A model generated the notes under the pieces. It was not told where the DNA came from. It saw only the letters and a program-made list of their open reading frames with translations, and did no database searches. Shown here piece after piece: positions 509-13,796 of a stretch of 64,000 nt of DNA. Within the stretch, counting starts at the first letter, position 1; each line of letters opens with the position of its first letter. The position numbers were made by a program, and so were the translations under genes. The stretch lies in the NCBI RefSeq assembly GCF_025787225.1, contig NZ_CP090958.1:1145856-1209855 (forward strand), in the 5' to 3' direction. Origin of the DNA: Saxibacter everestensis. Lineage in GTDB: Bacteria; Actinomycetota; Actinomycetes; Actinomycetales; Brevibacteriaceae.

Positions 509-2479
509 CTAGCGTGCCTGCGCACTAGACGACTGTGGCGCTGCATCGTCTTCACTCGGCAGCGGCACGCGCGCACCATGGGTCACCGGCCGGCTCAAGC
601 GGTTGCTTCGCATCGCTTCCTGAACGTGCTGCTGGGTAGCTCGACGCAATGCCCAGCGGTTGAGCCACCACTCCGAAATGCGTGTGTCACCATCCGTCAG
701 AGACACGTCCATCAGGTAATTGGGTGTGCTGTCGATCCCGAGGGAGTAATCGCGGAGGTTGCTCACGAGCGGGACGCCGTAGAGGATGCGCTCGCGTCCG
801 TGCTTAAGGAGTTCATTCGTTGGCCAGCCGAGCGCGGCCAGGCCTAGACGCACCTTTCGGAGTCGAGGACTGACACCTTCCCCAAACAGACTGTTGACGC
901 GGACCGACGAGTCATTCAGCGTTGAGAGCCTGAGCAGTGCTTCGACGGATGTATCGGTGAAGTGTGAAGTGCCGAAGGACCGTGACCGTCCAAGTTCGAA
1001 GAATCCCACGCGTGCGTCCGGTTTCCCGCCAACCACGTCCGCCGGCCAGAACAACCGATTGTACTGGCTCGAACCGGTGCCGTAGAGGGATGTAGTCGCA
1101 ACGAGTGAGAGACGTGCTTCCCGAACGATGGCGCGCCCTGCCATCGCTGAGGCGATCTCGCTCGGCCTCGTGTACTTCTTGCTATAGGCGGCGAGAACGG
1201 TGGGCGATACCGCGAGAGCGCCTACGAGTTTCCCTGCTGCGAGCGTGTTGTAGGGCGCAATCGCACCGCACACGGTCAGGTCAGCGATTACGGTGCCGAC
1301 TCGTTCGCCACGGGCGCGACGTGCCAGTCGCCGAAGGCGGGCCCGGGTGCGGCTGTCGTCGAGCGATTGCCTGAGACCGTCGAGAGTTGGTGTTGGGAGC
1401 AGGTATGCCCCAAGCACCATTCGGATGTCCAGCGCTTCGGCTAGCGCAGCTGATCGCTTGCTACGGAAGAGGTCCGTCGTAGCTCGGGCGATCCAGGCAT
1501 CGTGCTCGATATTGCGGACTTCACGAATCGTCGCCGAACGGTGGTGGCGCTGCCGGTGACGTTCGGCATCGGCTTTGAGTCGGGCGATTGCATCCTCTGT
1601 CGGCTTGGTCAGGTCTGACGGTTGCAGTACACCGTCCGTCAGTAGGTCACCGACGTAGATTTCGGCCTGCTGTACTTGGATTCGGTGCGCAACCCAACGG
1701 GCCAGCTCTTCACTTGGCTTTGTGTGAAGATCCCGCAGGAATTGGTCTGTCTCCCAGCCCATCCAGGTATCGCGCTCGGCGATCTGCACCACAGGGCTAG
1801 AGATGGCTGCGAGACCGATGACCGCGTGGTGGGGTGTGGACGCGTCGCGTACGAGCATTGGCATCGACCGCCCCGGTACTGTGGCGTAGGCGTTCGACCA
1901 GGTGTGACGGAAGTAGCGCCAGATGTTTTGGAGCTTGAAGCCAGTGAGCTCGCAGATCGAGTCATCAGCGATCTGTACGTAGGGCCGGATAGCCTGCCGC
2001 CCCGTTGGATCCGCCTTGATCGCGTCCGATAGCTCACATCCGTCCCGCATGAGGTCGAAGATCGACACCAACTGATCGCCGTGCTGGTGTGCTCGCTCCA
2101 TGCCTTGCACGAATCTGCGGACGCTAGGCTTGCGCAACTGCTCGTCGCGGCGGAGGTGCTCCTGCGTCCGGATTCGCTCCTTCTCGGCGTCACGGTCACG
2201 ATGGGTTGCTGGTGGCGAGAACAAGGGGCCGAGACGATCAACCTTGACAGTCCATCCCTGGGCGACCAGGTCGATGGCGGCATGGGCGGCCGCGGCCAGC
2301 GTCGGCTGGGTGTAGAGATCACCAAGGTCGGCGGCGGACACCCACTGGCCGTGTGTGAATCCTGTTCGGTCGCTCCGGGTTTGCGTCGCCAGCAGCTTGC
2401 ACAGGCGCAGGTAGCCACGTCGTTCGCCACGAGGGGAACCGCTGGGAAGGTTGAGGGGAATGTACTTGGGTTCGGTCAT
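509..2479 (-). CDS. DUF4338 / Druantia DruA-like protein (candidate defence protein)
   Basis: A 656-residue protein beginning MTEPKYIPL. This start gives an ATGA overlap with the upstream ATPase stop; a longer start at 2515 is possible. Mid-protein it has IGLAAISSPVVQIAERD followed by TWMGW. A later block has LTVCGAIAPYN, LAAGKLVGALAVSP, MAGR, TTSLYGTGSSQYNR and an FGTSHF motif. From memory these match the DUF4338 family, which includes DruA of the Druantia anti-phage system. The biochemical activity of that family is unknown to me. Length is larger than a minimal DruA (about 300-400), so extra N- and C-terminal parts are present. It is the last gene of a three-gene minus-strand cassette with a GHKL ATPase, which supports a role in anti-phage or anti-plasmid defence. 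Confidence 0.6.
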   Translation of the reverse strand: MTEPKYIPLNLPSGSPRGERRGYLRLCKLLATQTRSDRTGFTHGQWVSAADLGDLYTQPTLAAAAHAAIDLVAQGWTVKVDRLGPLFSPPATHRDRDAEKERIRTQEHLRRDEQLRKPSVRRFVQGMERAHQHGDQLVSIFDLMRDGCELSDAIKADPTGRQAIRPYVQIADDSICELTGFKLQNIWRYFRHTWSNAYATVPGRSMPMLVRDASTPHHAVIGLAAISSPVVQIAERDTWMGWETDQFLRDLHTKPSEELARWVAHRIQVQQAEIYVGDLLTDGVLQPSDLTKPTEDAIARLKADAERHRQRHHRSATIREVRNIEHDAWIARATTDLFRSKRSAALAEALDIRMVLGAYLLPTPTLDGLRQSLDDSRTRARLRRLARRARGERVGTVIADLTVCGAIAPYNTLAAGKLVGALAVSPTVLAAYSKKYTRPSEIASAMAGRAIVREARLSLVATTSLYGTGSSQYNRLFWPADVVGGKPDARVGFFELGRSRSFGTSHFTDTSVEALLRLSTLNDSSVRVNSLFGEGVSPRLRKVRLGLAALGWPTNELLKHGRERILYGVPLVSNLRDYSLGIDSTPNYLMDVSLTDGDTRISEWWLNRWALRRATQQHVQEAMRSNRLSRPVTHGARVPLPSEDDAAPQSSSAQAR

Positions 2480-3927
2480 GACTTCTGCAGCATCCGCGCG
2501 TACGTCGAGCCCCACTCGGCTACCAATGGGTCGGTTGGATCTGCGCTTGCCTCGGCGCTGCGGGCGAACGCCAAGATGAGTAGTTCCACGGCTGTTCGAA
2601 GTTCGGTAGCCGCATTATCGGTAAGCGTCTGGAGCGGTTGGTAAAGTGACGTGAACGCCGGGTGGTCAACGTTAAGTTGTACGTCGAGCTTGTTCGCCGC
2701 CAAAGTTGTCTTGAACATGGCACCGGAAGATAGGCGTGTTGTGCTGATGCGGTAGCGCAACGGCCCGTGCGCACCACGACCACGGCCGTTGCGTAGCACG
2801 GGCTGGTCTGGGTCCGCTGCCTCGGCGATCCGACATGAAGCTTGAGCTTCTGCCTGGAACTTCACATCCTCGAAGGCTTTCCGTACGCGCACGTTGAGCA
2901 GACGGGCGATAGATTCGAGCTCCGGTTCTAGAGCTTCGCGTAGTTTCGCTGACGGACGGATTCCCTGCTTGTTAATTGTGATACCGAAATGCTCGTCCAG
3001 CACCGGCTCGAACTCAATCTCGCAGCGCCACCAGTCGTCGTAGTTCTCCTTGCGCTTTCCGCCCATGAGGTGCCACCCGTGCGCTATCTCTCGGCCCGCG
3101 CGGAGAATCGATACGCCACCACCACCGACGATACCTAGGCGTCGCTTCGTTGGGTTGTCGAGGCCGTGCCATCGGTGGACCGGCAGGTAGGTGAAGCGGA
3201 CTCGAACACAGGCCGAGCCGCCGTCTGCGGTGTGGAGTTCGTACTCCATTGGATCGAATGCGACGGTCGCGCTTGCCCCTTCGACCTTGGTCGCGAGCAT
3301 CAATGGGTCATCTGCCTCGATAGCCGTCCCGTTGAGGGTCAGCGTCAGACCATCGGTCAAGTATCGTCGGTACATCCTTCCAAAGTCGCGTCGTAGTGTT
3401 CGCTCGAGCCACCCAAGGCGTCGGTACTCGATCCGGTCGCAGTCTCGCCACGTCACTCGGCACCCAGAGGATGTGACGGATGACCCAACGTTACGAGCCT
3501 TGAGGGCTGGCACTTCGCCCGAGGTGATCGCATTGACATCGAGTGTTACCTCCAGCGCCGAGGCACTGTCTTGCCAAGCGACAACCTCAACGCGGCAGGC
3601 CTGGCTGAGCGACGCAGCCGGGAGACCCATGCCAAACCGGCCGAAGGACTCTCTCATGCCGAAGCGGGACGACCCTCCGAAGCGCAAGCACTGTTCAAGT
3701 TCCCGCCGATTCATTCCTGAACCGTTGTCGAGGACCCCGATCTCGGGATGCGTGGCACCCTCGGGGCGGTGGAGCGATATTGCAACGCTAGTCGCGTCCG
3801 CTTGGAGGGAGTTGTCGACCAGTTCGGCGAGTGCGGCCGACAGGCTCAGGTAGCCCAACTCGCGTACCGCTCGAATGAAGTTGGACGACACCATCAGGTT
3901 GTCGACGTCTTGGGGCTGCCAGCTCAT
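2476..3927 (-). CDS. GHKL-type ATPase (MutL/MORC/Hsp90-like), defence-associated
   Basis: A 483-residue protein with a clear GHKL nucleotide-binding domain at the N-terminus: AELVDNSLQA (E35, N39; N box), DNGSGM (residues 67-72; Bergerat G1 box) and GRFGMGL (96-102; G2 box). The rest resembles the transducer region of stand-alone MORC/MutL-like ATPases and has no histidine-kinase H box, so it is not a sensor kinase. The start at 3927 has AGGAG five bases upstream; another ATG at 4035 would add 36 residues and overlap the previous gene. The stop overlaps the DUF4338-like gene. Prokaryotic MORC-like ATPases commonly sit in restriction or defence loci, so ATP-driven DNA sensing or clamping is inferred. 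Confidence 0.75.
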   Translation of the reverse strand: MSWQPQDVDNLMVSSNFIRAVRELGYLSLSAALAELVDNSLQADATSVAISLHRPEGATHPEIGVLDNGSGMNRRELEQCLRFGGSSRFGMRESFGRFGMGLPAASLSQACRVEVVAWQDSASALEVTLDVNAITSGEVPALKARNVGSSVTSSGCRVTWRDCDRIEYRRLGWLERTLRRDFGRMYRRYLTDGLTLTLNGTAIEADDPLMLATKVEGASATVAFDPMEYELHTADGGSACVRVRFTYLPVHRWHGLDNPTKRRLGIVGGGGVSILRAGREIAHGWHLMGGKRKENYDDWWRCEIEFEPVLDEHFGITINKQGIRPSAKLREALEPELESIARLLNVRVRKAFEDVKFQAEAQASCRIAEAADPDQPVLRNGRGRGAHGPLRYRISTTRLSSGAMFKTTLAANKLDVQLNVDHPAFTSLYQPLQTLTDNAATELRTAVELLILAFARSAEASADPTDPLVAEWGSTYARMLQKS

Positions 3928-4024
3928 CGCTACTCCTGCCTCACTAGGTATGACCCTTTGGGCTCGGGGTAACTCGGCAGAGGGTCTCTCGGGGCGATCA
4001 CCGCGCAGACGACTCGCTTCATTC

Positions 4025-4396
4025 TCAGCGATCATCGACCGTCACCGTGATCCGCTTTGTCTTGGCGGGCTCGGTCAGGTCGATCGCGCCTTCCTCAGTG
4101 ATCAGTCTGGCTGTGGGCATCGATCCGGCTCCCAAGTGGAACGACTCGTTCGACCTGAGCCAGACTACCTTGCCTGTCCGCTGGAGGTCGAACCTGATGA
4201 GATGGCGGCCGGTGCGCAGGGTGAGGACGCGATCGACTGCCTCGCTTGTTTCGACGGTCTCACCAACTAGTACGTCCACCGATGGCGTGAGCGACTTCAG
4301 GGAGTTGATGCCGAGCACCTGAAGGAGAACGATCCGTTTTCCGTGCAAACGTTCAAGGGTGGTCGTGATCTCGTCTGCCGTCTGTAAGGAAGCCAC
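4025..4396 (-). CDS. Hypothetical protein, first gene of the ATPase/DUF4338 cassette
   Basis: A 123-residue protein starting with GTG at 4396. It is mostly beta-type sequence with alternating hydrophobic and charged residues (for example RIVLLQVLGI near residue 21 and LIRFDLQRTGKVVWL near 67) and has no signal peptide or membrane segment. It lies 97 bases upstream of the preferred ATPase start, or overlaps the alternative start, and points the same way, so it is probably co-transcribed. I recognise no family. A sensor, adaptor or DNA-binding accessory for the ATPase is a guess from position only. Confidence 0.5.
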   Translation of the reverse strand: MASLQTADEITTTLERLHGKRIVLLQVLGINSLKSLTPSVDVLVGETVETSEAVDRVLTLRTGRHLIRFDLQRTGKVVWLRSNESFHLGAGSMPTARLITEEGAIDLTEPAKTKRITVTVDDR

Positions 4397-5150: not shown

Positions 5151-7790
5151 ATGCGCAAGGTGGCACACAACCAGAACGCCTACTACTCCGATCCGGCGAT
5201 CGTGATGGATCCCAGGAACCTCGGCGCAATGCAGCCGACCAGGCTGTCGGCCTCCCGGAGCTTCATGTCCAAGATGATCCGGGAGAACTGGCGGATCGAA
5301 CGCGAAGTCTTCGAAATCGACCGACGCGGCAACGGGCAGGCCCGCTATTCGATCAGCACTCCGGAAGGGGCGCTCACCTTCCTCGCGTTTATGAGTGAAC
5401 CGTCGAACAAGAACCGGACCGGTCGGATCATCGGCACCAGCTGGGACATGATCGGGGCGCTGATCGACGGAGTGGCCACCGCGGAACAGGTACGTGAGAC
5501 GGAAGAAGAACTCCCGCGGCTATACGAAGGCCGTGCGACCGCCAACACCCTGATGTGGTTCCGGTCCAACCAGAGCCTGAGGATCTTCCGCGCGGTCCGG
5601 GCAGCTCTGGCACGCGGCGACCAGCCCGACATCAAAGACCTCCGGCACGTCGGCTACATCATGCGCAACACCGGCCTCGACGGCAACGGCACCTTCGGTA
5701 CGACCCCCTTCGCCGCCATCCGCAAGGACCACCCGCTGAAGTCCTCGTACCACGCACAAATGCTCTCCGCATACCTGATGCGGGAACTTTCTGTCGACCT
5801 GGTCGAAGAACTCGCCCGTCTCGACGCCCCGGACACCGCGGTCTGCATCGATCCGTCAATCAAGCGCCTGATCGGCGTCGGGAACGGCTCAGCCCTCGGG
5901 CTGGCCATGCTCTTCTACAACCGGCCGATCCTGGTCAACTCCTATATTTCCGCCTACCTCAAAGTCGTCGACCACGTCCTCCGCAGCGAGACACTGGGAA
6001 CGAAAGAAGACTTCACCACCCTGGAGGATCACCTCAACCGCACGATCCGGTACCGATCCTTCCTCACCACCTCCTACCGGTTCTTCACCAGCAACATGGA
6101 GATCGTGGCCGACCTGAGAAGGATCCGCGCGAAAGTCCGCGCCGCCGCCCGCGGAGAAGTGATTCCGGCAGCCGGTGACACCGTACTCGCGACCATCCAC
6201 CGTGAGGCGAGCGCTCAAGTGAGCAAGGAAGCACTTCACTCCTTCAACACCCTGCTGATGGAACTCGTCCCGGACTACTGCGCGCAGATATCCGAGCAGT
6301 ACCTCAACTTCGAGGAGAATCTGGCACTCGACCCTACGACTCCGCTGAACACGCTCAGGGAGGTCATCACCACCAGCTTCCAATGGGCGCTTTCCCTCCC
6401 GCTCAACGACGACGAGAACCGCGACCGGGTCTGGTACCAGTCCCGTGCCGCCGAGGAGCCGCGATCCGGCCCCCGGGAAGAAGTTCCCGAGGCGCACGAG
6501 CTCATCCAGAGTTACCCGCTGTACGTGCGCGAACTGCTGTCGGCTATCGATCACGCCGAGCACGGAACGACGCTGGGTGACCTGCTGTCGAACCATCCCG
6601 AACTCGAGTACATCACCCGGCTGGTGCTTTCACTGAAGGACAAGCCGTACGCCACGGCCTACGCCGATCCGCACGACACGGATTTCGTGCCGGTGTGGGT
6701 GATCCGATTCGTCAACTCTTTCATCCACGGCCTCGACCGCACCGAAGACCACATGGGCCGGGATGTCCGCGGTCTGATCTTCGAATCGGCCCCGTACCGG
6801 GACGAGATCGCCGAGGCGGACGACTCGACCTGGTGGTGGTCGTATGAGAAACCGGCGGTTTCCACCCGGACGGCGCACATTGCGCCAGCGGCGGGGGCAG
6901 CCAAGATGGGCGCCACCTCAACGGGAGAGATGCCAGCCGCGAAGGTGGTGCTCACGCCGATCCAGACGCCGATCACCCCACCCGAGGCGCACGACACCGA
7001 GACGATCGAGATGAAGTACCGGGAGCTCCGGCTGATGGCCGGCCGGGCGTATCAGGCACTCAACGTGCCGCAGGGATCGTGGCACGGTGGCCGGGAGTTC
7101 GTCGTCACCAGCCTGGTGGCGGACCTGCAGGCGGCAACCGCGTTCGGGGATCTGCTGATCAGCGCGATCGACCCCGATACCGGGAAGGCGCCGGCCTGGC
7201 GGGCTCCGTCGTACAGCAACGCTGACGGGATGCTGGTCATCGACAATCACGGGCAGAGCCTGCTGGCCACCGGTCATGTCCTCGTCAATCTGCTCGGTTC
7301 GCATGCCGGTGACACACCGCAGCGATTCGAAATCGTTAACGCGGTGGCCGATCACGCGCTCGCCGGCCTGCAACTGGAGCTGAGCCGGTACGGCATCAGC
7401 CTCGACCTCGCCGAGGCGGACGGAACCGGCACCGACGCGAACGGAACCGCGCCGGACCGAACCGTCACGCCCCCGACCCACACCGGAACCGTGGCGATCA
7501 GCAGCGACCCGGAAACCCTGAAGAAGGAGCACCGGCAAGCGATGTACGACTTCGTCGTCAACGGGCGCACGGTGGATTCCAGGACGTTCTGGAACATCTA
7601 CTACCGCGCCAACGCTGGCCTCGACGTCGACACCCCGATCTCTCGCCAGCACACCGGCGGGACCGTCCTCGACGTGATCAAACCGGGGGAGCGGATCACC
7701 AAACAGTTCACCAGTGAGGAACTCCATCTCCTCACCGACCCCGACGAACTCGACAACCAGAACATCACCGATTTCATCGCGGCCCACTGA
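5151..7790 (+). CDS. Unrecognised 879-residue cytoplasmic protein linked to the M19/ABC cluster
   Basis: ATG at 5151 follows a GAAAGG ribosome site. The product has no signal peptide and no membrane segment. The first 560 residues are mostly helical, with conserved-looking patches such as TGLDGNGTFGTTPFAA (about residue 174) and IGVGNGSALGLAMLFYN (about 242). An Ala/Pro/Thr-rich linker follows at about 565-620, then a C-terminal part with a low-complexity linker (DGTGTDANGTAP) near residue 760. Its size and linkers suggest a two-module, perhaps fused, protein. It is 25 bases upstream of the dipeptidase-like gene and in the same direction as an amino-acid-type ABC importer, so it probably acts on the same substrate. 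I do not recognise the family and assign no reaction. Confidence 0.8.
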   Translation: MRKVAHNQNAYYSDPAIVMDPRNLGAMQPTRLSASRSFMSKMIRENWRIEREVFEIDRRGNGQARYSISTPEGALTFLAFMSEPSNKNRTGRIIGTSWDMIGALIDGVATAEQVRETEEELPRLYEGRATANTLMWFRSNQSLRIFRAVRAALARGDQPDIKDLRHVGYIMRNTGLDGNGTFGTTPFAAIRKDHPLKSSYHAQMLSAYLMRELSVDLVEELARLDAPDTAVCIDPSIKRLIGVGNGSALGLAMLFYNRPILVNSYISAYLKVVDHVLRSETLGTKEDFTTLEDHLNRTIRYRSFLTTSYRFFTSNMEIVADLRRIRAKVRAAARGEVIPAAGDTVLATIHREASAQVSKEALHSFNTLLMELVPDYCAQISEQYLNFEENLALDPTTPLNTLREVITTSFQWALSLPLNDDENRDRVWYQSRAAEEPRSGPREEVPEAHELIQSYPLYVRELLSAIDHAEHGTTLGDLLSNHPELEYITRLVLSLKDKPYATAYADPHDTDFVPVWVIRFVNSFIHGLDRTEDHMGRDVRGLIFESAPYRDEIAEADDSTWWWSYEKPAVSTRTAHIAPAAGAAKMGATSTGEMPAAKVVLTPIQTPITPPEAHDTETIEMKYRELRLMAGRAYQALNVPQGSWHGGREFVVTSLVADLQAATAFGDLLISAIDPDTGKAPAWRAPSYSNADGMLVIDNHGQSLLATGHVLVNLLGSHAGDTPQRFEIVNAVADHALAGLQLELSRYGISLDLAEADGTGTDANGTAPDRTVTPPTHTGTVAISSDPETLKKEHRQAMYDFVVNGRTVDSRTFWNIYYRANAGLDVDTPISRQHTGGTVLDVIKPGERITKQFTSEELHLLTDPDELDNQNITDFIAAH

Positions 7791-7815: not shown

Positions 7816-8802
7816 ATGCTGTACGTCGACAGTCTGCTCTGTACGCCGCTGGAGAAGGAGAGGCCGGACAATCGTCCCGCCCTGAAAGAGCTCGCCGCCG
7901 GAAACGTCGGTTGTGCCACGGTCACCGTCGGGTTCTGGGAGGACGCCACCGAATCGATGGATCAGATCGTCAAATGGCGGAACATGGCCGAAGACAATGC
8001 CGATGTCGTCGAGATCGCCTACACCGCCGACGACATCACCCGGATCGCCGATTCCGGCCGGTGCGCGATTCTGCTGGGATTCCAGAACGTCGCCTTCCTC
8101 CAGGGCCGGCTGGGCTACGTCGAACTCTTCGCCAGGATGGGCACCCGGGTCGGCCAGCTGACCTACAACATCCAGTCCGATGTCGGCGGGTCCTGCTACG
8201 AACCGCACGACTCCGGCCTGACCAGGTACGGCAAGTACGTTGTGCGCGAAATGAACCGCTGTGGAATGGTCGTCGACCTCTCCCACGTCGGCAACACGAC
8301 GACGATGGACGCCATCCGCCATTCGGCCGAACCAGTCGCCATCACCCACTCGAACCCGGCCGAACTCGCACCGCACCCGAGGAACAAGCCCACCGAGGTG
8401 CTCGATGCGCTCAAGGACAACGGGGGAGTGATCGGCCTGTCGGTGTACCGGAACATCGTCGGCGATTACACCACGCCGGACAAGTGGTCCGAACTCGTCG
8501 CCTGGACGGTGGACCGGATCGGGATCGAGCACGTCGGGATCGGAACCGATTTCGATCAGACAGGTGGAATGGCGTATCTCGAGTGGATGCGCCAAGGACG
8601 CTGGGCCAGGGAAACGCAGTACGGGGCCGGGTCGAAATCGAACTCCGGACCCCAGCCACGACTGGGCTGGTTCGATGATCCATCCCAGTTCCCGAACGCC
8701 GAGGCATGCCTTCGTGATCGTGGGTTCGACGACCGGGAAGTCGGACTGATCATGGGTGAGAACTGGCTGAATTTTTATCGCAGGACGTTCAAACAGCTTT
8801 GA
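7816..8802 (+). CDS. Membrane dipeptidase-like protein (peptidase family M19) with altered metal site
   Basis: A 328-residue protein starting at ATG 7816 after GAAGGAC. Family M19 features are clear: LGFQN (near residue 90), QLTYN, DLSHVG (H157), ITHSNP (H178), GGVIGLSVY and VGIGTDFDQ. M19 enzymes hydrolyse dipeptides, often with D-residues, using two zinc ions bound by an N-terminal HxD, a bridging Glu and two His. Here the N-terminus reads YVDSLLC with no HxD, and the bridging Glu position reads Q in GFQN. Only the two C-terminal His remain. This fits a divergent subgroup that may bind one metal or catalyse another reaction. Context (ABC importer) suggests processing of an imported amino-acid derivative. 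Confidence 0.8.
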   Translation: MLYVDSLLCTPLEKERPDNRPALKELAAGNVGCATVTVGFWEDATESMDQIVKWRNMAEDNADVVEIAYTADDITRIADSGRCAILLGFQNVAFLQGRLGYVELFARMGTRVGQLTYNIQSDVGGSCYEPHDSGLTRYGKYVVREMNRCGMVVDLSHVGNTTTMDAIRHSAEPVAITHSNPAELAPHPRNKPTEVLDALKDNGGVIGLSVYRNIVGDYTTPDKWSELVAWTVDRIGIEHVGIGTDFDQTGGMAYLEWMRQGRWARETQYGAGSKSNSGPQPRLGWFDDPSQFPNAEACLRDRGFDDREVGLIMGENWLNFYRRTFKQL

Positions 8803-8866
8803 GGGAATGATGAGTATGTCTCTGCCTTTGTCACAGTCCTTGACTCATGAAGAAGGATCCACGGTA

Positions 8867-9622
8867 ATGGATGGTTCATTCGTTTCAGCAACGTCACTGA
8901 CCAAACGGTTCGGCGACCACAAGGCCATCGACGACGTGTCCCTCACGGTGTCCAAGGGCGAAGTGATCTCGATCATCGGGCCCTCGGGAGCCGGGAAATC
9001 GACCTTCATCAGGTGCATCAACCTCCTGGAGGTCCCCGATAGCGGGAGTCTGCGGATCAGTGACGCGCAGATCGACTTCGGTTCCGGCCGGCCATCGAAG
9101 CCCAAGATCCGGAATGTGCGAGAGTACACCGGCATGGTGTTTCAGTCGTTCAACCTCTTCCCGCATTTCACCGCGCTGAAGAACGTGGCACTTCCGCAAA
9201 TGCGGGTGCACCGGCGCTCGCGGGCCGAGGCCGAGGCTCGGGCGATGGAAGAACTCACCCGGGTCGGCCTCGAGAACAAGGCCCATGCCTACCCGGCCCA
9301 GTGTTCGGGCGGGCAGCAACAGCGCATCGCTATCGCACGCGCCTTGGCGATGGACCCCGAGCTCATGTTGTTCGACGAACCAACCTCGGGTCTCGACCCG
9401 GAGATCGGCGCGGAAATCCTGCAGGTGATGCGCAAGCTCGCCGCCGACAACATGACGATGCTCGTTGTCACCCACGAGATGGAATTCGCCCGGCACGTGT
9501 CGAACCAGGTCGCCGTCATGGTCGACGGAGCGATCATCGAACAGGGCAGCCCGGAGCAGATCATGACCAACCCGGAACATGTCCGTACCCAGAAGTTCCT
9601 GTCCGCGGTCCTGGGGCGCTGA
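8867..9622 (+). CDS. ABC transporter ATP-binding protein, polar amino-acid uptake type
   Basis: The product has Walker A (GPSGAGKST), Q-loop (MVFQSFNLFPH), signature CSGGQQQRIAIARALA, Walker B (LMLFDEPTSGLDP) and the H-loop region (VVTHEMEFA). The pattern matches GlnQ/HisP-type ATPases that power uptake of polar amino acids or opines. The start at 8867 has AAGGA nine bases upstream; in-frame ATGs at 8807 and 8816 would add up to 20 residues. It overlaps nothing upstream and is one base from the first permease, so ATPase, two permeases and binding protein form one operon. Confidence 0.9.
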   Translation: MDGSFVSATSLTKRFGDHKAIDDVSLTVSKGEVISIIGPSGAGKSTFIRCINLLEVPDSGSLRISDAQIDFGSGRPSKPKIRNVREYTGMVFQSFNLFPHFTALKNVALPQMRVHRRSRAEAEARAMEELTRVGLENKAHAYPAQCSGGQQQRIAIARALAMDPELMLFDEPTSGLDPEIGAEILQVMRKLAADNMTMLVVTHEMEFARHVSNQVAVMVDGAIIEQGSPEQIMTNPEHVRTQKFLSAVLGR

Positions 9623-9623
9623 C

Positions 9624-10268
9624 ATGGCTGAGATATTCGGATACATCGCCCTGGGCGCCGGATGGACGGTGCTGATGACCTTCGGGTCGGCGGCGATCGG
9701 TATTGTGCTCGCCGTGCCGCTGCTGGCTCTGGCACAGAGTCGATTTGCCGCGATACGCGGAATCTACAACGGATTCGTCCACGTCGTCCGCGGTGTCCCC
9801 ACACTTGTGTGGTTGTTCATCGCCTTCTTCGGCGTCGGCGGGCTCGGGATCACCCTGAATCCCGTCACCGCATCCTTGCTCGCACTGTCGATGATCGCCA
9901 CCGCATATATGGCTGAGATCTACCGCGGCGGGATGAAAGCCATTCCGGCAGGGCAGTGGGAAGCCGCTGGCGCCTTGAATCTCGATCGGGCCTCGACGCT
10001 CAGATTCGTCGTTGGCCCCCAACTGTTCAGGGCGGTTAGCCCGTCCGTGGCCACCCAGATCATCGGCCTGCTCAAGGATTCGGCCCTGGTCTCGACCATC
10101 GGTGTCACCGACCTCGTCTTCCGCGCCGGCATCATGACCCAGTACCACGCTGAGGGCCTGTACATGTTTGGATTCGCCGGCCTGATCTACCTTCTGCTCA
10201 GTCTGCCGATCGCGGTGTTCTCCAGAAACATTCACGCCCGGATCACGAGGAGGTACGCAGTAGCATGA
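9624..10268 (+). CDS. ABC transporter permease, His/Glu/Gln/Arg/opine family (first)
   Basis: A 214-residue integral membrane protein with about five helices and the EAA-loop typical of amino-acid importers (EAAGALNLDRASTLRFVVGPQ at about residues 112-132, the motif that docks with the ATPase). The ATG at 9624 follows the ATPase stop by one base. It pairs with the second permease to make a heterodimeric channel. Confidence 0.9.
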   Translation: MAEIFGYIALGAGWTVLMTFGSAAIGIVLAVPLLALAQSRFAAIRGIYNGFVHVVRGVPTLVWLFIAFFGVGGLGITLNPVTASLLALSMIATAYMAEIYRGGMKAIPAGQWEAAGALNLDRASTLRFVVGPQLFRAVSPSVATQIIGLLKDSALVSTIGVTDLVFRAGIMTQYHAEGLYMFGFAGLIYLLLSLPIAVFSRNIHARITRRYAVA

Positions 10269-10996
10269 ACGACTTCTCCTGGCTTTACACCTGGCCACAA
10301 CATCTTCCCGAGCTGCTACCCGGCCTGTGGACGGCGATCGTGATGACCTGTCTGTCCTGCCTCGGCGGGTACATTCTGGGATTCTTTCTTGCCCTGATGG
10401 TCGAGGCTCGATCGAAGATCGTCAACTACGTTGCGCTGGTCATCGTGGAACTTGGCCGCGGCATACCAATCCTGGTGCTCTTGCTTCTCTTCTATCAGGG
10501 ACTGCCTCAACTGGGAATGCTGCTGGATCCGTTCTCGGCTGCGCTCGCAGCGTTGACGTTCTCCGCCGCCGGCTACTCCTCGGAGATGATCCGCGCCGGA
10601 CTCAATGCGGTGCCGAAAGGACAGGTCGAGGCGGCGAACTCGCTATCGATGCCCGTGCTCGACACCTACCGGTTCATCGTTATTCCGCAGGCGTCAAGAA
10701 TCTCCATTCCACCGTTGGTCAACCTCACGATCATCATTTTCCAGGCGACATCCCTGGCAACGGTGATCACGGTCCCGGAAATCATGCAGAGTGCGGGAAT
10801 CATCGGTTCGGCCACCTTCGAGTACATGTCCGTCTACACCGCAGCTGCCGTGCTCTACCTGTGCATCACGATTCCCGGCGCCATTCTCACCGGCTACCTG
10901 GAAAAGCGGATGGGAGTCCAGAAAGGGCGGTCGAAGAAACTAGCACTGAAAGCACTACTCCCGGGAGTCGCCAGGACAACTCTCAAACGGGCCTGA
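10265..10996 (+). CDS. ABC transporter permease, His/Glu/Gln/Arg/opine family (second)
   Basis: A 243-residue membrane protein whose ATG overlaps the stop of the first permease (ATGA). It carries the same EAA-type docking segment (VEAANSLSMPVLDTYRF at about residues 121-137) and ends in a basic tail (KGRSKKLALK). Two different permeases plus one ATPase is the standard polar amino-acid importer layout. Confidence 0.9.
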   Translation: MNDFSWLYTWPQHLPELLPGLWTAIVMTCLSCLGGYILGFFLALMVEARSKIVNYVALVIVELGRGIPILVLLLLFYQGLPQLGMLLDPFSAALAALTFSAAGYSSEMIRAGLNAVPKGQVEAANSLSMPVLDTYRFIVIPQASRISIPPLVNLTIIIFQATSLATVITVPEIMQSAGIIGSATFEYMSVYTAAAVLYLCITIPGAILTGYLEKRMGVQKGRSKKLALKALLPGVARTTLKRA

Positions 10997-11026: not shown

Positions 11027-11884
11027 ATGAAAAGGAGTCTCGCCATCACCTCGGTGGCCGTGACCGCGCTGTTCTTCCTCGGTGGATGCGGAGGTGCGCC
11101 CCCGGGTGCCCCGGACGCGGTGGCCGAGGATTGCACGCCCCGGGACGAAGGACTTGAAACTCTCGAAGAGGGAGTTCTCACCGTCGCCCAGTACGAGTAC
11201 GTACCGTTCTCGATGTCCGAAGAGCCGGGCACACTCACCGGGCTCGAGGGTGACGTCCTGACGAAGTTCGCCGAGCTCGAGTGCCTGACGCTGAAGGTGA
11301 ACAAGGGCGACTCGGCCGCAATGATCACTTCGGTGGCCACCGGTCGCGCCGACACCACGTTGGGTTCGTGGTACCGGACGAAGGAACGTGCCGAGAAGGT
11401 GCGTCTCTCGGCGCCCGTCGTGACCTCACCGTTCTCCACTGTGTCGAAGGAAGGTATCGAAACTGTCGACGGTCTCAAGGACGTCGAGGTCGGAGTGGGG
11501 CAGGGGTTGATCGGTGTCGACGATATCAAGAAGGTTATCGGGGGCAAGCTCAAGATCTATCAGAACGACGACGCCCTGTTCGAAGACATCAAGGCCGGCC
11601 GCGTGGATGCCGCTGTGCTCGGGTACATCGCCGGCGCGCAGTATTTGAAGAAGCACGAGATCGAAGGGTTCAAGGTGACTCCGCTCAAGCCCGACGACCG
11701 TCTACCGGCCACGAGGGAAGCGGGTCAGACGAACTTCCCGGTGGGCAAGGACAACGAGCAGCTCGGCAAAGCGATCGATAGCTTGATTCAGGAACTCAGA
11801 GACTCAGGCGAACTCGACAAGATCGCCGAGAAGTACGACCTGGATCCGACCGTGATGCACCCAGGCGAACCGAACCTGCTGTAA
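11027..11884 (+). CDS. ABC transporter substrate-binding lipoprotein (solute-binding family 3)
   Basis: A 285-residue protein with a lipoprotein signal peptide: positively charged start, hydrophobic core and lipobox LGGC with the lipidated Cys at residue 21. The mature part begins with a short linker and shows family 3 features, for example LTVAQYEYVPFS, GLEGDVLTKFAELE, ADTTLGSWYRTKERAEKV and a final DSLIQELRDSGELDKIAEKY. It should capture the ligand outside the membrane for the two permeases. A GGAG site (AAAGGAG) precedes the ATG. The ligand cannot be read from sequence; linkage to an M19-like protein suggests a small peptide or modified amino acid. Confidence 0.9.
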   Translation: MKRSLAITSVAVTALFFLGGCGGAPPGAPDAVAEDCTPRDEGLETLEEGVLTVAQYEYVPFSMSEEPGTLTGLEGDVLTKFAELECLTLKVNKGDSAAMITSVATGRADTTLGSWYRTKERAEKVRLSAPVVTSPFSTVSKEGIETVDGLKDVEVGVGQGLIGVDDIKKVIGGKLKIYQNDDALFEDIKAGRVDAAVLGYIAGAQYLKKHEIEGFKVTPLKPDDRLPATREAGQTNFPVGKDNEQLGKAIDSLIQELRDSGELDKIAEKYDLDPTVMHPGEPNLL

Positions 11885-11960: not shown

Positions 11961-12662
11961 ATGAGCCTGCAATCAGTGAGCAAGACGATCCTAGTCCTGG
12001 AAACGTTCCTGAAGTTTCCGGACGGCAGGTCAAGCGTGTCAGGTCTTGCCCGTCAGCTCGGCTGGTCAAGAGCGGCCACCCATCAATACGTGTCGACCCT
12101 CGCCGAGGTGGGCTGGTTGGTGCAGAACGAGAAACGTGACTACCAGCTCTCGCCCCGGGCGGCGGTGTTCGGCCGATTCGCGATCGAATACTCCGGAGTA
12201 CCTCCCGAGGTGACCCGTGCGATGGAGTCGCTGGTGGAGCAGCTCAATGAGCCGATTTCCTATGCGGTGCTGAATGGCAACGAGGCGATCATCATCGAGC
12301 GGCATGAACCCAAGCGGCCGTTCGCGATCAGCAGGGCTGCCGAGCCGCATCTGGAGTTGAAGACCTCCGCATCCGGAATGGTGTTGCTGGCCTTCGACGC
12401 GCACGTCGATGCGAGCCGCCGGGAGGGTATGCAGGACACCCTCGCCGAGGTGCGGGCGAACGGGTATGCCCAGTCCCATTCCGAATGGTTGGGCGACGTC
12501 GTCGACGTCGTGGCCGTGCCGATCATGTCGGACGGGGAGTGCTTGGGTGCGCTGAGCGTGATAGCGCCCGCAGGGCGATTCGACATCCCCACGGCGCGCG
12601 AAGCCCTGTTGACGGCGCGAGCGAAGGTGGAAGCGGAACTCGGCGGGGCCAAAGCGGGTTAA
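11961..12662 (+). CDS. IclR-family transcriptional regulator
   Basis: A 233-residue protein with an N-terminal winged helix (VSGLARQLGWSRAATHQYVSTLAEVGWL at about 28-55) and a C-terminal IclR effector domain (ISYAVLNGNEAIIIERHE, ELKTSASGMVLLAF, VVDVVAVPIMSDGECLGALSVIAP). IclR regulators control catabolic and transport operons in response to small ligands. It sits directly behind the ABC operon and terminator in the same direction and is the obvious candidate regulator of the 5.1-11.9 kb cluster. The dyad at 5122-5139 is a possible target. Confidence 0.88.
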   Translation: MSLQSVSKTILVLETFLKFPDGRSSVSGLARQLGWSRAATHQYVSTLAEVGWLVQNEKRDYQLSPRAAVFGRFAIEYSGVPPEVTRAMESLVEQLNEPISYAVLNGNEAIIIERHEPKRPFAISRAAEPHLELKTSASGMVLLAFDAHVDASRREGMQDTLAEVRANGYAQSHSEWLGDVVDVVAVPIMSDGECLGALSVIAPAGRFDIPTAREALLTARAKVEAELGGAKAG

Positions 12663-12679: not shown

Positions 12680-13729
12680 TCACCGGAGGCTGACCGCGGT
12701 CGAGCCGCGGAGGACCAGTTCCGTCTCCAGTTCATGACGGCGCGCAGGCAGGCGCTCCCCGGAGATCGCCCTCAGGAGCAAGTCGACGGCCAGCCGGCCC
12801 ATCTGATCGTACGGTTGACGCATCGTCGTGAGCTGCGGGTCCAACAGCAACGCCGCTCGCTCGTCGTCGAATCCTGCGACCGCGACGTCGTCCGGCACTG
12901 ACAGACCGTGTGCGGAGAGCGTGCGCAGCACCGGAGCCGCCAGCAGGTCGGCCAGGCAGAAAATCGCGTCGGGTTCAGCCCCCGATTCCAGCAACCGGTC
13001 GAGTTCGGGCACCGTGACGATCGACTCGTCGCCCGGCGATGACCAATCGAGCACAAGCTCCTCAGCGGGGGCCAGCCCCGCCGCGGTCACCGCATCGCGG
13101 TAGCCGGCGACCCGCTCCTCGACGAACAGGCCCTCGCCCCAATAGGGGGTGAACTCGTTCGAGGTTGCGCCGACACACGCGATTCGCTCACAGCCCTGCG
13201 AGATGAGGTGCTCGACGATGGTCCGGGCGCCGTCGCGGTTCTTGGCGCTGACGCTGGCTAGCTGGACGGAGCGCGAGGTGTCGTCAATCGCGACGACGGG
13301 GAGACCGATCCGCTCGCAGGAGTCGCGCGCCGCCGCCTGGTCGGGCACGCTCACGACGATCACCCCTTCGGTCGGCACATTCGCGAGTCCCTCGATGACC
13401 GCCTCGAGCCCGCCTTCGGTGCCGGCGATCGGATGCACGAACAGGTGGAAGCCCGCGTCCGCCGCCGCCTCCGCTGCCGACCTCAGCACCGGTTCCCACC
13501 AGCCCCACACCAGGTCCGGCACAATCGCGCTCACGGCCCGAAATGAGCCCCGACGCAGCGCACGTGCGGTGGCGGAAGGACGGAACCCGAGCTCGTCGGC
13601 GATCTTCCGGATTCGCTCTCGCGTTTTCTCGCTCACATCGGGTCGGCCGTTGAGTGCGCGAGAAACGGTAGCCGGGCCGACGCCCGCGATCCGCGCCACG
13701 TCGGCGAGGTTAGGTCTTGAGGTTGTCAT
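12680..13729 (-). CDS. LacI-family transcriptional repressor of the sugar cluster
   Basis: The preferred start MTTSRPNLADVARIAGVG gives 349 residues with the LacI helix-turn-helix (NLADVARIAGVGPATVSRALNG) and hinge helix (SATARALRRGSFRAVS region), followed by a periplasmic-binding-protein-like sensor domain (ERVAGYRDAVTAAGL, FCLADLLAAPVLR, VAVAGFDDERAALL). Longer starts at 13747 and 13795 are open. It is divergent from the MFS/GH3 operon across a perfect palindrome, so it probably represses that operon and itself until a sugar ligand is bound. Confidence 0.9.
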   Translation of the reverse strand: MTTSRPNLADVARIAGVGPATVSRALNGRPDVSEKTRERIRKIADELGFRPSATARALRRGSFRAVSAIVPDLVWGWWEPVLRSAAEAAADAGFHLFVHPIAGTEGGLEAVIEGLANVPTEGVIVVSVPDQAAARDSCERIGLPVVAIDDTSRSVQLASVSAKNRDGARTIVEHLISQGCERIACVGATSNEFTPYWGEGLFVEERVAGYRDAVTAAGLAPAEELVLDWSSPGDESIVTVPELDRLLESGAEPDAIFCLADLLAAPVLRTLSAHGLSVPDDVAVAGFDDERAALLLDPQLTTMRQPYDQMGRLAVDLLLRAISGERLPARRHELETELVLRGSTAVSLR

Positions 13730-13796
13730 TCGCTGCACGCTCTCCATTGCTTGTTGACGACTCGGGCGCCTCTCTCGTACTCTATGTGAATCCACT

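Follow-up and report, generated by a model that had tools for sequence, protein, structure and literature searches.

Introduction

Among solved structures, human DPEP1 (1itq), an S. coelicolor protein (3id7) and GliJ (5lwz) have the same M19 fold as the protein described here (Z 37.8, 38.4 and 38.8, respectively), and share with it two His, an Arg and an Asp. The two-zinc site of these three proteins includes the HxD motif and a bridging Glu, and our protein has neither. Its nearest solved relative is 2i5g, an 'amidohydrolase' from Pseudomonas aeruginosa; no literature on 2I5G, or on PA5396 as a dipeptidase, was found. Outside M19, the closest fold is that of N-acetylglucosamine-6-phosphate deacetylase (NagA), which belongs to a different family. 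The Escherichia coli enzyme works with one metal at the second site and keeps a Glu ligand, and it offers a one-metal precedent for the mechanism proposed below.

Regarding gene context, a predicted dipeptidase gene, 'pepD', lies beside dgcAB in the dimethylglycine catabolic cluster of Vibrio natriegens and P. aeruginosa (PMC12093977). That cluster resembles the present locus in its gene context, and the accessible part of its description names no genes of the two families here called A and B. The locus studied lies in a window of 64,000 nucleotides from Saxibacter everestensis, by which the whole stretch of DNA analysed is meant. A literature search of incomplete coverage found no description of a module made of A, B and an M19 gene, nor a metal content, activity or substrate for any member.

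The M19-like protein

An intact ORF on the forward strand, running from the ATG at 7816 to the last stop base at 8802, encodes 328 amino acids. The protein scored 238.4 bits against the Peptidase_M19 profile (PF01244; curated cut-off 26), and no NCBIfam model matched it at E 0.001. The gene and its site positions are as follows.

7816..8802, + strand: M19-fold (PF01244) dipeptidase-like protein with remodelled metal site, 328 aa
7834..7842, + strand: Leu7-Leu8-Cys9, in place of the canonical HxD metal motif (lost, by alignment)
8083..8085, + strand: Gln90 (LGFQN), metal-bridging Glu position; Gln in 70/70
8164..8166, + strand: Tyr117, catalytic-His position; Tyr in 69/69 sequences reaching that far
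8284..8286, + strand: His157 (SHVG), second-site metal ligand position, kept; 69/69
8347..8349, + strand: His178 (THSN), second-site metal ligand position, kept; 69/69
8380..8382, + strand: Arg189, kept; 69/69
8548..8550, + strand: Asp245 in GTDF, kept; 69/69

The first barrel strand is the very start of the protein, where MLYVDSLLCTPLE (VDSLLC) stands at the place of the M19 (V/I)DGHND. In the alignment to M19 relatives, the His of HxD is replaced by Leu7 and its Asp by Cys9. Tyr117 stands where M19 enzymes have the catalytic His (His152 in human DPEP1). Arg189 corresponds to the substrate-carboxylate Arg of M19, and Asp245 to its catalytic Asp. The original prediction had stated that HxD is missing, that Gln stands for the bridging Glu and that the His residues of SHVG and THSN are both present, and on all three points it was right. 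An upstream start that would restore HxD was ruled out, as the frame extends only to a GTG at 7714, gains no HxD and overlaps the ORF that ends at 7790. Since the His, Asp and bridging Glu positions are all replaced, the usual two-zinc site is unlikely; that it could not form, as had been claimed, is something we infer from these three positions rather than observe. Beyond that prediction, the analysis revealed the change at Tyr117, the conserved partner genes and the same changes in the solved structure 2i5g.

The predicted model of the protein had a pLDDT of 84. Its top 17 structure matches were all M19-type chains (Z 35.8-43.9), followed by NagA at Z 18.0, and as the former outscore the latter to this extent, the M19 fold is intact in the model. 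The nearest structure was 2i5g (Z 43.9, rmsd 1.9, 314 residues, 33% identity), which was also the best solved relative by sequence (E 1.4e-55); the other 16 chains scored Z 35.8-38.9. The P. aeruginosa protein reads IDGLIIA for DGHND and has GFQN, the Tyr of CYN, both His, the Arg and GTDF. The altered site itself is therefore not new. A difference lies in the profile score: with the A-linked profile 2i5g scored 323 bits, within the range of the group that does not lie beside A (316-352 bits).

Conservation of the altered site

Residues were counted in 70 clade sequences, namely the window and 69 of the 73 loci examined. Positions after Gln90 were counted in 69, as the sequence of L105 breaks off shortly past that residue; two others (L015 and L020) are loci where A was not found. 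The count was made without L044 and the short duplicate loci L026-L030 and L049-L086. Among the loci found through the M19 gene, L019, L022 and L025 were left out, and L021, L023 and L024 served as controls. The controls comprised 11 M19 proteins, including the canonical paralogue L091. Genes in the loci were found by six-frame profile searches, longest-ORF calling having missed or mislabelled genes in GC-rich loci.

Neither His at position 7 nor Asp at position 9 occurred in any of the 70 clade sequences. Position 7 was Leu in 66, Val in 2, Ala in 1 and Asn in 1, and position 9 was Tyr (43), Cys (19), Ile (4), Met (2), Phe (1) or Thr (1); in the controls, the HxD His was found in 11/11 and the Asp in 10/11. 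Gln90 was present throughout the clade, against Glu in 11/11 controls. Tyr117, His157, His178, Arg189 and Asp245 were invariant in the 69 sequences, and position 117 of the controls was occupied by Trp (7/11), His (3/11) or Tyr (1/11). Trp54, Asn91, Gln114, Asp132, Lys191 and Trp317 were fixed or nearly so in the clade and rare in the controls. A clade segment with Trp257, Arg259 and Trp263 aligned to a gap in most controls. It is tempting to think of an aromatic pocket for a cationic group, inferred in a region where the model is weak (pLDDT <50 at 248-278). The same residue pattern spans phyla, goes far beyond what chance would give and, judged from the sequences, the altered metal site is a trait of the clade.

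These counts bear on the view that the protein is an ordinary dipeptidase that binds zinc via substitute ligands. The conserved fold and substrate Arg agree with it, as does the amino-acid-type importer adjoining the gene in the window. We nevertheless consider it improbable, given that the HxD pair has not given way to any conserved Asp, Glu or His: position 7 is nearly always Leu and position 9 mostly Tyr or Cys, so that the substitute ligands that the original prediction had left room for were not found there. Moreover, the same genome has a separate M19 protein (G000:C1:874236-874871, L091) with the canonical DGHND and Glu motifs, and the annotated neighbours of the module are catabolic, transport and regulatory genes, not further peptidases.

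The missing motifs, taken alone, could also be read as decay, a frameshift or an annotation artefact. Decay is refuted by conservation, and this whole group of explanations retains a negligible probability: the 328-aa ORF is intact, it is 84-92% identical to the copies in other Brevibacterium and in Sediminivirga, and the residue pattern is the same across phyla.

A tree was built with the columns of the trait itself left out and without 2i5g. The position 7 of the control rows was misaligned in this alignment, and the control residues were taken from the residue-count alignment. A group of 27 rows was recovered with a support of 100/99, and 22 of them adjoin A or come from A-bearing genomes. 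The altered residues are fixed across this well-supported group, in agreement with the earlier view of a specialised subgroup rather than decay. Its neighbour was a group of 13 Gln-bearing proteins, none of them beside A, from Azospirillum, Agrobacterium, Thioclava and other genomes. Among the deeper rows, some proteins keep Glu and others have their Gln within a different motif, and 2 Gln/Glu changes were needed on the tree; the order of the deep branches is unsure because some of them are long.

Five M19 relatives (L142, L145, L146, L148 and L021) keep the bridging Glu, in FDLEG or FDLED, and have Tyr at the His152 position. HxD reads HxC in L021 and L142, the two where it was readable. Judged by their motifs, these proteins resemble intermediate stages on the way to losing one metal position.

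The partner ORF

The gene directly upstream of the M19 gene encodes a protein of two parts.

5151..7790, + strand: 879-aa partner, fusion of families A and B, directly upstream of the M19 gene
5151..6854, + strand: family A domain, residues 1-568; no match to a known fold
6987..7745, + strand: family B domain, about residues 613-865; linked via rhizobial-type B to DUF3726 (PF12525)

No Pfam (at E 0.001), NCBIfam or PDB sequence match was obtained for the 879-aa ORF. A (~570 aa) and B (~240 aa) are encoded separately, with an adjoining M19 gene, in rhizobia, Variovorax and Alloyangia, whose A is 36-40% identical to that of the window. The roseobacter-type A is 25-29% identical, and the B gene there is DUF3726: two roseobacter-type B proteins match PF12525. 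Profile comparisons linked the fused B domain to the rhizobial-type B (E 1.2e-16) and the latter to DUF3726 proteins (E 4.1e-8). The direct comparison of the fused B domain with DUF3726 gave no match (E 0.26), the two being too far apart. Nucleoporin matches for B (E 0.19) were treated as chance. The fusion suggests that A and B work together.

The model of family A, predicted from 16 sequences, comprised 575 residues (pLDDT 77, pTM 0.83); its N-terminal half was alpha/beta and its C-terminal half helical. A Foldseek search of the PDB with this model gave no match at E 0.001 or better, and the best VIA-align Z was 4.5. A new fold is possible for A from this model, in which, at 575 residues, single domains can be missed. 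Matches of the A profile to V-ATPase subunit C and pentalenene synthase (E 0.065-0.31), and of its fold to uricase and argininosuccinate lyase (Z 4.5 or less), were regarded as chance. Among 59 sequences of family A, 23 columns were invariant, 5 of them Arg. No literature on DUF3726 was found, and the accessible parts of PMC12093977, PMC13390433, PMC12817926, PMC9723723, PMC10041152 and PMC3691474 describe neither A nor DUF3726.

Distribution of the module

Family A was detected in 47 of the 337 alphaproteobacterial genomes sampled (14%), some of them of only 1.2-1.6 Mb, and in 5 of the 296 genomes of the window's phylum, its own genome included. Of the 44 loci found through A, 4 were actinobacterial; the other 40 came from 38 of the 47 alphaproteobacterial genomes that bear A. 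This set excludes G332 (already represented as L017), G507 and the genomes whose A match was split or partial (G398, G408, G411, G418, G422, G533 and G603). An M19 gene was present at 40 of the 44 loci, less than 150 bp from A in 34 of these 40 and on the same strand in 39. At the remaining four the M19 gene lies elsewhere in the genome, in G586 beside a second copy of A.

An M19 match of at least 400 bits was found in 45/47 alphaproteobacterial genomes with A vs 5/290 without it (Fisher p about 1e-47; related genomes do not count as independent). Most of the sequences behind the profile were A-linked, and the cut was chosen after the scores had shown a gap (408 to 352). At looser cuts the figures were 46/47 vs 15/290 (at least 316 bits) and 46/47 vs 41/290 (E 1e-50). 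As five alphaproteobacterial genomes have a close M19 protein (at least 400 bits) and no detected A, A is not strictly needed.

DUF3726 was found in 35 of 40 A-bearing genomes, in all 35 directly beside A, and in 0/14 control genomes; for these counts, as for those of transporters below, the seven genomes of the 47 with split or partial A were left out. In the actinobacterial loci L001-L013, which were found via the M19 gene and include two near-copies (L012 and L013), the 879-aa-type ORF, M19, ABC ATPase, permeases and IclR gene occur together in 13/13. The solute-binding protein was seen in 12/13, the contig of L009 ending first. By their gene order and co-occurrence, A, B and M19 form a conserved gene module. 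The module may have moved into Brevibacterium and other actinobacteria, in many of which A and B are fused.

In four alphaproteobacterial loci from genomes of about 1.2-1.4 Mb (L123, L125, L126 and L128), an M19 gene was seen with A and a B/DUF3726 gene. By eye, L123 and L128 have GcvT/DmdA-like proteins as neighbours, and L128 also an MTHFR-like and a Rieske-like protein.

So tight a partnership of M19 with A and B is what would be expected if the M19-like protein were a pseudoenzyme, one that leaves the chemistry to A and B and serves to bind substrate or metal or to keep these two together. That three metal-ligand positions and the catalytic-His position are lost points the same way, as do the invariant residues that A has of its own (the 23 columns and five Arg mentioned above). 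We regard this as rather unlikely. His157, His178, Arg189 and Asp245, retained in 69/69, would be superfluous for a mere scaffold, which is thereby disfavoured, and close M19 relatives exist in genomes without detected A.

Transporters and neighbouring genes

Downstream of the M19 gene, the window holds an importer and a regulator.

8807..9622, + strand: ATPase of an ABC transporter of the polar amino-acid type; possibly starting at 8867
9624..10268, + strand: ABC permease 1
10265..10996, + strand: ABC permease 2
11027..11884, + strand: solute-binding protein, family 3 (SBP_bac_3)
11961..12662, + strand: IclR-family regulator, near the module in 13/13 of L001-L013 and in six plasmid loci (L038-L043)

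A LacI-family regulator (12680-13795, - strand) is convergent with the IclR gene. It had no match in the module loci searched, which places it outside the conserved module. At the other end of the window, three ORFs of the - strand (509-2515, 2476-4035 and 4025-4396) encode a DruA1-type Druantia protein (PADLOC, 895.7 bits), a GHKL ATPase (HATPase_c_3, with a weaker MzaB match of 63 bits) and a small product without match. From these matches, they are probably a compact anti-phage defence locus.

In two roseobacter clusters (Phaeobacter and Ruegeria TM1040), A and DUF3726 are found with M19, LysR, ALDH, an Ldh_2 oxidoreductase and a transporter of the BCCT type; genes for an AraC-type regulator and for sarcosine-oxidase-like subunits adjoin them. 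In a Shinella cluster, ProXWV-type genes take the place of BCCT. The closest models for the ALDH are those of 2,5-dioxovalerate dehydrogenase, whose cut-offs it does not reach, and a dimethylglycine-dehydrogenase-like flavoprotein is also among the module neighbours. Of 40 A-bearing genomes, 12 have a betaine-type transporter gene (BCCT or OpuAC) no more than 8 kb away from A, vs about 0.7 expected; these 12 include relatives and are not independent. The other 28 A-bearing alphaproteobacterial genomes have neither within that distance.

The importer of rhizobial-type loci comprises a solute-binding protein, two permeases and an ATPase, often with RidA, and some of these loci have an aminotransferase, a semialdehyde dehydrogenase or a thiamine-diphosphate enzyme. 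This gene content points to small imported nitrogen compounds as likely substrates, betaine-like in part of the family, and does not fix a single one. Because rhizobial-type and actinobacterial loci carry other importer types, no one common substrate is established.

Gln-type M19 genes that lie away from A (L134-L136 by annotation, L166-L167 by eye) were observed near FAD-dependent oxidoreductases. These neighbours suggest a wider role of the Gln-type clade in amine catabolism.

Discussion

A conserved homarine pathway is reportedly the subject of a study in Nat Microbiol in 2026, in which homABCDER is said to stand for five genes plus a regulator, with N-methylglutamate as an intermediate. 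The gene count of the roseobacter cluster (LysR with ALDH, M19, A, DUF3726 and Ldh_2) fits homABCDER, and the roseobacter module may, by this analogy, be the core of that pathway; we offer it as a lead. PMC13390433 cites the pathway and has N-methylglutamate dehydrogenase taking part in it. The Brevibacterium module differs from the roseobacter cluster in having no adjacent ALDH and Ldh_2 genes.

The subunits beside the roseobacter cluster may be those of an ordinary sarcosine oxidase. Two of them exceed the soxB and soxA subfamily cut-offs, with models that may not separate N-methylglutamate dehydrogenase from sarcosine oxidase. Relatives of these soxB/soxA-type subunits adjoin purU, folD or GlxA-type regulators, and the regulator of the roseobacter cluster L133 is GbdR-like, below the cut-off. 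These neighbours fit sarcosine oxidase at least as well, which speaks against the homarine lead.

For the M19-like protein itself, a working half-site enzyme appears the most likely reading. More specifically, we hold with about as much belief as doubt that, as a member of a specialised M19 clade, it is an enzyme of the amidohydrolase fold which has lost one of its two metal positions and works with A-B. In the mechanism proposed, the ligands of a single metal, if there is one, would be His157, His178 and perhaps also Gln90 and Asp245; the alternative to one metal would be a metal-free acid-base pair. Arg189 would hold the carboxylate of the substrate, and the enzyme would break a C-N bond or perform a related hydrolytic step. 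The substrate may be a small imported zwitterion, or the product of A-B. In roseobacters and in some of the small alphaproteobacterial genomes it could be a betaine or an N-methyl amino acid, and the Brevibacterium version, with its polar amino-acid-type importer, may use a related compound. It is conceivable, at somewhat less than an even chance, that A, B and the remodelled M19 protein together make up a catabolic enzyme of a new kind, one that acts on betaine-like or N-methylated nitrogen compounds by opening or deaminating them and is widespread in alphaproteobacteria.

Public records call the genes of this clade 'dipeptidase' or 'membrane dipeptidase', names that are probably wrong. The M19-like gene, its two partners, to which no function is assigned, and the importer suggest a little-known use of small nitrogen compounds, not a broken enzyme. 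The clade would represent a natural series of an amidohydrolase barrel losing one metal position. The substrate, once found, would give functions to three families at once, and it may explain the bacterial use of a common osmolyte.
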